From: Tribonema minus
Taxonomy: Eukaryota > Sar > Xanthophyceae > Tribonematales > Tribonemataceae
Direction: 5' to 3'
NCBI GenBank assembly: GCA_017506865.1
Contig: JAFCMP010000168.1
Coordinates: 124,001 to 188,000 of the forward strand
Length of the DNA stretch: 64,000 nucleotides
The translations under genes and the position numbers were made by a program. Below the pieces are notes generated by a model, which searched no databases, was not told where the DNA came from, and saw only the letters and a list, made by a program, of their open reading frames with translations. How positions within the stretch are numbered: the first letter of the stretch is position 1; each line of letters begins with the position of its first letter. This document shows, piece after piece, positions 8,927 to 58,900 of the stretch.

Positions 8927-9070
8927 GAGTCCTGCTAATACCATCACTATTCCTGGTCGCGCTTGTGCTGGTGGCCAAGTCAGGGCCAGTCCTGCCAACG
9001 GCCGCCGGCATTCCAGGTCGCGCCTGTGCTGGTGGCCAAGTCAGGGCCAGTCCTGCTGTGCGCCCAGGCG
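8927..9070 (-). repeat. two tandem copies of the NDUFAF5 stop-codon region
   Basis: Blocks at about 8930-8980 and 8990-9040 repeat the plus-strand text CGCGCTTGTGCTGGTGG (one base changed in the second) that occurs in the true last exon at 9168-9184. The unit is about 60 bp and includes the flank around the stop codon. They lie just downstream of the gene. Confidence 0.7.
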
Positions 9071-9156
9071 TTGTTGATACAACGACAGCAACACGGTGCG
9101 CCCAGGTGTTGTCGATACAGCGACAACACCGGGGCTCACACTGCCAAGGACCGCCA

Positions 9157-55900: not shown

Positions 55901-58900
55901 TTCCAATCAGTGGCAACAACCCACATTGTGTCACGGTGCCAAATGCACCTTTGACGCCAGCAAGCCTGTCAGTTATGGTTGGTTCACCGCATAGTAGAGA
56001 CAAACTCAAAATTCGGCCAAGGCAGACTGCAGCTCCAGTGAGCTCATCAGCATCGGCGGCATATGCACAGCACAAAGCACAGCACGCCATATGAGAGAAA
56101 CCCGCACTGGGATCATATGCGGTCACAGCACGTTAGCCATTGGTCAGCGCACCGCGCAGCGCATTCAAGCATCGTTCAGACACTCAGGTAGTGGTGTCCG
56201 CCGCAACAGCTGACTTGTGAAGAGTCGCTCCGCACAAAGCTCGCATTCTGATGTATGAAGCCTGTCCCCCATCTGCTGTGTCACTGTTGTCAGTAACCCT
56301 AACCCTACCTCTAACTACTAGCCCTAACCCTAACCCTGTGCCGCGCAGGCGATCAGCTGCACACAGGGGCTCAACATCTACGACTCGGTCATGAAGCTCA
56401 ACGGTGAGAGAACCGTAAGTGAGCGCCGCCGCCGCCGCTGCTGCCGCCGCCGTCGCGCAGCGCTGCACCCGCCACCATTCGCTACAGCAGCAAGTCACAA
56501 GCGGCATCATCATTGCTGCAGCTTCTGATGATGATAATGCTTCTACTTCAAATGTATGCAATAGTAATGGCACATGCCTCAGCGCTCTGTGAAGTCCGCT
56601 AAGTGCTGGCTGGCATTGGCAACGTTCTCTGCAACGGCGGGCCGAGCGCGCTGAAACAAACACATTAGGAGGCTGTGATTGCCATTGGTGGTCCTCCCCC
56701 CCCCCGTGCGGCGACGAGTTGACGATGGCACACGCATTTCTGCGTTGCGCTAACAGCACCAGCTTCAGTCAGACGATGACATCCGGTTCTGCGCTTAATG
56801 GCAGCGCTACCACAGCTGTCGGCATCACGGCGCTGGCACCGGCGCGGCGAGCCTAGTAGCTCGCTGCAAGAGTTTGTGCCACGTTGTGGAGCGCTGCTGC
56901 ATTCACCATCGCGCGGCGACTGCGCTTGAGGGTGAGGGCGGTCAGCTGCACCGCATCTCTCTGCCCTCTGGCGCTCTGCTTGCCCGCATAATTGGCAACT
57001 CTCACACTGCCCTGCCGTTCAGGCTGTGCCCAGGGCCCTCGCGATCCCCCACGACTAGCGCGGAGCGTTGCCACGGCAGCTCTGAGTCCCTGTCATTCGG
57101 TAATACTGGGTAGTTCCAACGGCTTCTGACTCGCCCGCTGCTGCTGCCGCCGGCGCCGCCGCTGCTGCTGCTGCTGCTGCTGTTGTCGCTGCGTGCCTTG
57201 CTTCGTGTGTCTCAGGGCTGCGGACGCTGCAGGGCCTCAAGTTCGACCCAGAGAAGGCAGCACGGTGAGCGCCCAGTCACTTCCCAGGCGCGAATGAGGA
57301 GAGCGGGAACTGGCCGTTGCGCTCGCGGCGCCCCCGCTACGCCACGTCAGCTGTGCCGGCCCTAACCATAACCGTAACCCAAGAGCCACCTAAAGCCCAC
57401 GAGCCGCAGCGGCGGACCGCAGCATAAGACCTTGCGTCGTGCCAGCACGCGATGCCGTCCCGCAGCGCTGCAACTGGCGGCTGTACCGCGACCCCGTGGA
57501 CATGCTGCTTGCGCTCAGGGGGCGCCGCGACCGCAGCACTGCGTGTGCACTGCGCGCGTTGCGGCCCCGCGCGTTGCGCCCGCACCGCCGCCGCCTGTGT
57601 GCAAAGTATACTCCAAGCGCCCTCAAGTATACCACAAGGGCCCTCAAGTGTGCTTCAAGGGCATGTCACAGCGCTCCGCCGCACCGCGCGCCCCGCCTGC
57701 GCCGCCGCCACTGGGTGCGAGTTTGCTCCGAGGGCCCTCCGAGGGCGCGCCTTGTTGTTGCGATGCTACTGCCGTGGCTCAGCGCGAGGGCGCGCGTCGC
57801 GCGTGAGCGGATCGTGACCGCAGCGAGCTGACGCGGCGGCGATGCTCCGCACCACTGGGTGCACCGCTACGCTGCATTTATGCAGCAGGAATGCCGCCAA
57901 ACCTCAATTGGTGCTTCGGAATGCATGCGCAAGTCCCACAGGACCACACTGGGATGCGGCCCCCTGGCATTTGCAGCTAACCATGGCGCGCGAGATGCAT
58001 CTGCAATGCCATCGCGCGGGCATCACAATGTGTATGGTTTGGAGACGCGTCGGCGCCAGGTCTGATGGAGCGAGAACAACACGCCAGATGCCTCATGCCT
58101 GTACGAGAGCGTCAGCTGCTTGCCCGCGCGTCAGCTCACAGTAATCAGCGCATGTTGCCGAGTTGCACTGCAAATGCTCTCTATACTGCATACCATTAAA
58201 CACGAGGTTGAGCATCCATCGCCGACCCGCGGCGATTGTCCTGACCCTTGCCCTTGTACAGCGCACCCCCAGAGCTATCTGGCAGTCCTTTCAACCAGCA
58301 ACACGCAGCGCCCTGACCACTGATTCTCACATCTACACCCCCCCCCTCCCCCCCCCTACCTTCAGGCAGCGCACTGTAGACATTGCGGACCGCAACCTGC
58401 GCTCGCACTCTGCAAGTGCTGCCGACACTCAACTGATACCGTGCATGCGCCACTTTGCGAGCAGATTACGTGGAGTTGCCCGTCTTTCACCCGCGTCGCC
58501 GATGCCCCCTCCCCCCCCCTCTTTCCTTCGGGCAGCACGTTTGTACAGCGCACTCCCAGAGCCTTCTGGCAGCCCTCTCGACCAGCAACACGCAGCGCCC
58601 TGACCACTGATTCTCACACCTAACCCCCCCCCCCCCCCCCCCCCCCGACCTCCTTTCAGGCAGCGCGCTGTGGACATTGCGGACCGCAACCTGCGCTTGC
58701 GCTGTGGAAGTGCTGCTGAAACTCAACTTCCTTCACCTTTTCACGCCCACCGCGCGAGCAGATTACCTGGACCTGCCCGTTTTTCACCCCCATCGCCAAT
58801 GCCCCCCTCCCCCCCCCCGCCCCGCTGTTCCTTCAGGCAGCGCGCCGTGGACATTGCGGACCGCGACCTGCGCGTCGTCACGAGCGAGCCGACCGTGGAG

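Follow-up and report, generated by a model that had tools for sequence, protein, structure and literature searches.

Copies of exon edges in the adjoining introns of genes of the xanthophyte Tribonema minus

The stretch of DNA analyzed here, called the window below, comprises 64,000 nucleotides (C168:124001-188000) of the assembly of Tribonema minus, a xanthophyte (yellow-green alga) with 158 Mb in 554 contigs. Its genes and the features found in their introns are collected in Table 1, and positions refer to the window unless a block is named. The plus strand carries a CLC chloride channel gene that matches its best solved structure at E 3.3e-31 and its best relatives at 41-42% identity. On the minus strand lie an NAD(P)-binding protein gene, 100% identical in its protein to the annotated JKP88DRAFT_198712; a methyltransferase gene, which presumably resembles NDUFAF5; and a gene-finder call at 19.3-22.8 kb, for which no family scored above the cut-off in the one exon tested. 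The preliminary description of this DNA placed exon-edge copies in four unrelated genes, of which the CLC, NAD(P)-binding and methyltransferase genes are supported and the 19.3-22.8 kb call is without homology support. It also began the pattern at position 8927. The methyltransferase gene does carry three short direct repeats there (8921-9185), spaced by 60 and 149-210 bp, but they fall in the 3' portion of a coding stretch that showed no verifiable splice site. A further gene used below, NDUFV2 in block C279a, has joined exons that match a solved protein at E 7.5e-62; for both CLC and NDUFV2, no T. minus protein is among the matches listed. The genome is GC-rich, and long C tracts lie in or beside introns of the window (38756-38784, 43310-43345, 43614-43646 and 44640-44707). 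Interstitial telomere-like repeats (TTAGGG/TAACCC), some of them decayed, occur at 47653-47690, 56294-56337, 60306-60380, 61703-61776 and 62934-62967.

Table 1. Genes, exon-edge copies and dispersed elements in the window.
Feature	Position	Strand	Remarks
Methyltransferase gene	donor 10520; stretch 8921-9185	-	PF08241
Two exon-end copies, donor 10520, methyltransferase gene	10180-10419	-	10366-10419, 10180-10233
Dispersed element family 1, 5'-truncated	10236-10360	+	fills gap between the two donor-10520 copies
Copy of predicted exon end at 19361	19122-19253	-	gene without homology support
Gene-finder call	19.3-22.8 kb	-	gene-finder call only, without homology support
NAD(P)-binding protein gene	24791-29208	-	PF13460; annotated T. 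minus JKP88DRAFT_198712
Exon-end copy, donor 26391, NAD(P)-binding gene	26148-26306	-	159 bp, 91%
Two exon-start copies, acceptor 26543, NAD(P)-binding gene	26603-26820	-	26603-26650, 26775-26820
Exon-start copy, acceptor 28289, NAD(P)-binding gene	28474-28592	-	119 bp, 91%
CLC chloride channel gene	43655-59976	+	12 curated exons; homology-supported
Acceptor-edge copy, exon 44712-44834	44575-44628	+	true edge 44680-44732; partly C-rich
Exon-end copy, donor 45728	45873-45960	+	source 45670-45758; telomere-like repeats within spacer 45759-45872
Acceptor-edge copy, exon starting 46555	46314-46404	+	
Exon-end copy, donor 46821	46887-46942	+	source 46770-46825; weaker second copy 46991-47070
Acceptor-edge copy, exon starting 48314	48053-48200	+	
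Two exon-end copies, donor 48442	48605-49016	+	48605-48745, 48877-49016; spacers homologous, plain tandem type
Acceptor-edge copy, exon starting 50176	49945-50003	+	
Exon-end copy, donor 50264	50485-50622	+	source 50210-50345
Two exon-end copies, donor 52825	53024-53272	+	53024-53063, 53211-53272; 97-98% identical
Three acceptor-edge copies, exon starting 54171	53663-54061	+	starts 53663, 53835, 54002
Two exon-end copies, donor 54337	54621-54996	+	54621-54757, 54924-54996
Dispersed element family 2	54763-54896	+	within donor-54337 array spacer
Exon-end copies, donor 55373	55463-55868	+	55463-55524, 55600-55696, weaker 55793-55868
Two acceptor-edge copies, exon starting 58837	58338-58696	+	58338-58402, 58625-58696

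We confirmed that copies of exon edges are present in the adjoining introns. Each edge was represented by an 80-bp probe (40 bp on either side of the junction) and compared, with shuffles as the null, to the adjoining intron; the search thus covered only the intron side of an edge. At the curated CLC exons, a significant copy was found for 14 of the 21 edges (7 of 12 donors and 7 of 9 acceptors; the signal at donor 43911 came from the intron half of the probe alone). Mid-intron probes of the same gene matched in 29 of 229 cases, all 29 within the exon-edge arrays and 0 of 155 outside them, the array spans having been drawn by hand. For NDUFV2, the comparison was 5 of 5 edges to 3 of 22 mid-intron probes, a count that leaves out the acceptor of an unverified neighboring exon, and for the NAD(P)-binding gene it was 4 of 8 edges, including a doubtful match at 29107 beside a CAGCAG-type repeat, to 0 of 29. 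Together, the three genes gave 23 of 34 edges versus 32 of 280 mid-intron probes (p 3e-12), or 22 of 34 without the doubtful edge (p 3e-11). Because CLC and NDUFV2 were picked in the knowledge that they held copies, this total is a within-gene contrast and not a genome rate. Chunked self-comparison of the window returned 53 pairs of local direct repeats, as opposed to 0 for one local dinucleotide shuffle of it; counts in five blocks, the window included, were 53, 18, 40, 16 and 82, with 0 in one shuffle of each.

Exon conservation biases such a search and accounts for part of the CLC edge excess, but not all of it, because the excess persists when the source probes are mutated. At an added divergence of 13% in substitutions and 3% in indels, 10.8 of the 21 edges were still detectable versus 29 of 229 mid probes (p 5e-5), and 6.8 of 21 were still detectable after harsher mutation (20% and 5%). 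Misassembly of alleles, named earlier as a finding that would undo the pattern, is an unlikely source of the copies because they differ from the exon by 2-32%, are found in numbers up to at least five per edge and lie on contigs of 1.1-2.0 Mb.

The window holds 33 copies at 19 edges with weak ones counted, in keeping with the "about 30" first reported, and all blocks together hold 87 copies at 41 edges, the further copies at an edge being called by a score threshold without its own null. On both strands, exon-end copies lie downstream and exon-start copies upstream of their source, as had been described and within a search confined to the intron side. The earlier view that the duplications are recurrent, span splice junctions and lengthen existing introns was likewise borne out. 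The distance from exon to copy, given before as about 60-290 bp, ranges between 56 and 781 bp in the full set of 87 copies, with a median of 177 bp for the best copy at 43 edges. Measured on the nearest copy in 33 arrays, which were hand-picked from the 41 edges by leaving out eight without a clean junction alignment, the duplicated unit has a mean of 76 bp (SD 24), of which on average about 49 bp are exonic and 27 bp intronic. The anticorrelation between the exon and intron overhangs is weak (Spearman -0.28, p 0.12) and does not establish a constant length of the unit. Spacers have a median of 78 bp; 27 of 32 measure 28-143 bp, and the rest reach up to 374 bp.

Among pairs drawn from the 87 copies, which are not independent within an array, the nearer copy was more exon-like in 54, the farther in 18 and neither in 6. 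Of 23 arrays, 17 have a nearest copy closer to the exon sequence than their farthest one, and in 1 the two are alike (p 0.008); an origin of new copies beside the exon would produce this gradient. Mismatches to the exon amount to 12.5, 10.7 and 19.9% at the three codon positions, a pattern that fits neutral, evenly decaying copies of a constrained exon that itself changes mainly at third positions.

What lies between the copies falls into two classes. Of 50 copy-copy pairs, 20 are homologous on the intron side too, at an identity (79.6%) close to that of the exon part (81.8%); for these, plain tandem duplication suffices. In the other 30, the intron side has no detectable homology while the exon part is 80.9% identical, so the term "tandem copies" used at the outset describes the first class and not detectably the second. 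A candidate pattern of core-only conservation mostly resolved, over the same 50 pairs, into homologous versus non-homologous spacers.

Dispersed elements lie within three spacers: 10236-10360, 54763-54896 and C279a 38200-38251. The first belongs to family 1, has 20 matches outside its array and, in the window, has a close-fitting long flanking repeat; the C279a element is of the same family and sits between two exon-edge copies, with a 62-bp repeat at 84%. Alignment of 26 family 1 copies shows a common 3' end and variable 5' truncation. Among copies chosen solely by similarity, direct repeats begin no more than about 10 bp from the element at L004 (83 bp, 95%), L050 (104 bp, 85%) and L043 (94 bp, 83%), and 10 of the 26 have no flanking repeat, several of which may extend past the modeled 5' end. 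Family 1 recalls non-LTR retroposons in its shared 3' end, in its 5' truncation of varying extent and, in those copies that have them, in the direct repeats at its flanks. Repeats of up to 104 bp are longer than is usual for non-LTR retroposons, and no reverse transcriptase was linked to the copies aligned. Separately, C279a contains near-identical inverted gene predictions with a YMDD-like motif at 17065-22074 (minus strand) and 22948-27969 (plus strand; loci L025-L026), probably a pair of elements bearing reverse transcriptase. Family 2 gave 40 scored matches, itself included, from 103 candidates. Among eight copies examined, close-fitting flanking repeats, allowing for an unaligned element end, were found at L056 (56 bp, 93%) and L052 (44 bp, 84%); L054 has 16 bp, L053 and the C334a copy have none, and the repeats of the window copy, L051 and L055 fit loosely. 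In the cases seen, both families sit inside longer introns.

Of 14 flanking repeats, 5 have a strong donor within 7-16 nt of their end, versus 14.7% expected (p 0.043); the set was hand-picked, and at least five of its repeats are weak or not flush (L006, L040, L042, L047 and L051), with L040 and L051, neither of them flush, among the five that have the donor. Coding scores in the retroposon flanks reached 6 or more in 5 of 14, versus a background best-of-two of 0.407. Five other spacers searched in the genome matched only themselves (5 of 5), those of the donor-52825 array among them, and the interval 44835-48313 gave telomere-like repeats and one other short match only. These results do not support the idea that all spacers are mobile elements. 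No strong motif is shared among 32 spacers, and the telomere-like word TAACCCTA occurs in 4 of them versus 1.05 expected.

How general the edge copies are was assessed in 314 kb from six places, with exons from a home-made gene finder (2680 probes built, 97 dropped for a target under 200 bases). Matches were obtained for 40 of 224 edges, 178 of 2232 mid-noncoding probes and 1 of 127 mid-exon probes (Fisher, edges versus mid-noncoding p 6e-6, versus mid-exon p 1e-7), an edge excess of only 2.5-fold in odds. The excess comes mainly from the window, which with these exons gave 17 of 79 edges versus 12 of 276 mid probes, and from C279a, with 16 of 38 versus 38 of 276. The other blocks gave 4 of 32 versus 23 of 412 (C2a), 3 of 27 versus 4 of 326 (C334a), 0 of 17 versus 26 of 544 (C112a) and 0 of 31 versus 75 of 398 (C536a); pooled, these four show no edge excess (7 of 107 versus 128 of 1680). 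The test proposed earlier, that edge copies should be commoner than copies of mid-intron or mid-exon sequence, is therefore passed by the sample as a whole but not by these four blocks when pooled. The unevenness may mean that only some genes show the excess or that the exons predicted in the other blocks are poor. Block C536a (loci L029-L033) is rich in local repeats in its noncoding DNA, with 96 local repeat pairs, the most of any block (unshuffled), yet no copies at its predicted edges.

The reading we prefer, tentatively and with slightly less than even confidence, is that duplications of about 75 bp arise recurrently at staggered breaks, often with filler, and are tolerated across splice sites, with ordinary tandem duplication acting in addition. 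The two DNA strands would be broken about 75 bp apart around an exon-intron border and the overhangs filled in. Joining would often trap filler (28-374 bp, median 78), be it a dispersed retroposon-like fragment, telomere-like repeats or other DNA. The copy attached to the exon body would retain the reading frame and the splice site, and the other copy would turn, with the filler, into intron and decay. Repeated events would move older copies outward, and some units would later multiply through ordinary tandem duplication. A preference for borders could stem from targeting of splice junctions, which is plausible, or from breaks that are common in exons and survive only where they span a border. 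This account is favored by the edge excess in verified genes that persists after source mutation, by a 76-bp unit with a larger exon than intron share, by the 30 of 50 pairs without intron-side homology, by the dispersed elements in spacers and the long direct repeats around other copies of their families, by the 5 of 14 flanking repeats that end close to a strong donor, and by the fall of identity with distance. Against it stand the homologous spacers of 20 of 50 pairs, filler that is for the most part unaccounted for (no genomic match in the five spacers searched, and little but telomere-like repeats in 44835-48313), the absence of flanking repeats from 10 of 26 family 1 copies and from 2 of 8 in family 2 (one more having only 16 bp), the weak overhang anticorrelation and the four pooled blocks. 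In a bolder form, splice junctions would be hotspots of long-staggered breaks, with filler captured near donors (7-16 nt, five scored cases) and target duplications of 40-100 bp, and introns would grow from their ends outward and keep exon-edge "growth rings"; we regard this form as unlikely.

The main rival is plain tandem duplication throughout introns and borders combined with detection bias, whereby a conserved exon keeps border copies recognizable for longer and the spacers have decayed. It may explain a large share of the copies, and as an account of the whole it is a serious possibility that we consider less likely than not. The 20 of 50 pairs whose spacers are homologous and no more diverged than the exon part, arrays with regular periods and the modest sample-wide excess, absent from four pooled blocks, are what it would lead one to expect. 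It sits poorly with the blank result for CLC mid-intron probes outside arrays (0 of 155), with the excess that outlasts source mutation and with the 30 pairs whose intron sides are at chance level beside exon parts that are 80.9% identical, some of which carry dispersed insertions. Gene conversion, in which the exon repeatedly overwrites old tandem copies, so that cores look young and spacers old, would account for cores being more alike than spacers in those 30 pairs. It would also suit the donor at C279a 46431, where a core of 34-36 bp is nearly invariant in the exon and four copies while the flanks differ. Yet aligned spacers are as similar as cores, which makes the pattern a two-state one, and conversion does not predict that identity falls with distance; we judge it improbable.

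Selection might instead maintain the copies as decoy splice sites, as the preliminary description suggested, or as alternative exons. The copies do usually keep GT or AG, as first stated (in all blocks together, 65 of the 80 copies that cover the junction), but a cruder mapping gave 29 of 43, and the first 8 intron nt of the copies are only 78-83% identical. The codon-position pattern is neutral-like, the copies starting at 53835 and 54002 contain in-frame stops, the opposite splice signal is not clearly enriched at copy ends, and the annotated protein model JKP88DRAFT_198712 contains none of the copies. We found no evidence for a decoy function and consider the proposal very improbable. The related mini-exon idea, that a copy is a complete AG...GT unit, was rejected: of 39 donor-copy ends, 7 have a strong signal of the opposite kind (random points, 12.7%), and of 26 acceptor-copy ends, 1 does (8.5%). 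Least credible to us, with hardly any weight, is that the copies are scars of intron birth at AGGT sites, a route to new introns that had been raised at the outset. One C279a intron does have an in-register repeat with a score of 23 versus a null maximum of 14, but the signature is clear in only 1 of 256 introns tested, and the copies adjoin their own exon within long introns. That one C279a intron, of 358 bp and near 2029-2387 (locus L024), has a 3' end that repeats the upstream exon end in register and telomere-like sequence inside, and is a possible recent intron birth.

Several known systems share parts of this pattern. Staggered-break repair as a mechanism of intron gain, as outlined in PMC3443670, leaves short direct repeats. 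Direct repeats around inserted DNA, with a similar fill-in explanation, may also be present in the Tribonema arrays, where 30 of 50 copy-copy pairs have no detectable homology beside the repeat and 20 do. The repeats described there are short and accompany new introns, whereas those of Tribonema have a mean of 76 bp and extend, at the border, introns that already exist. AGGT tandem genomic duplication, in the same account, is similar in being a local duplication that includes splice-site sequence; in Tribonema, the spacer is often outside the repeat, and a new intron possibly arises in only 1 of 256. Introners, some cut-and-paste-like families of which have target-site duplications of 3-9 bp according to the outline in PMC9860276, resemble the arrays in combining insertion with a target duplication that can include splice-site nucleotides. 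They differ in that most Tribonema spacers do not belong to a common element and do not give rise to a new intron; the introner hallmark, the same element forming whole introns at many sites, was not seen among the five searched spacers. Among the titles and abstract openings listed from the open-licence literature, we found no description of recurrent exon-edge copies that lengthen introns.

The gene finder built for this analysis took copies for exons, and annotations of such genomes may contain false in-frame insertions derived from copies. The history of intron lengthening is usually erased by decay, and border copies beside a conserved exon are a readable record of it. From series of such copies one can measure how fast and with what polarity introns grow, and which repair products result. 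Were splice junctions shown to be targeted, DNA breakage would be linked to transcription or splicing.
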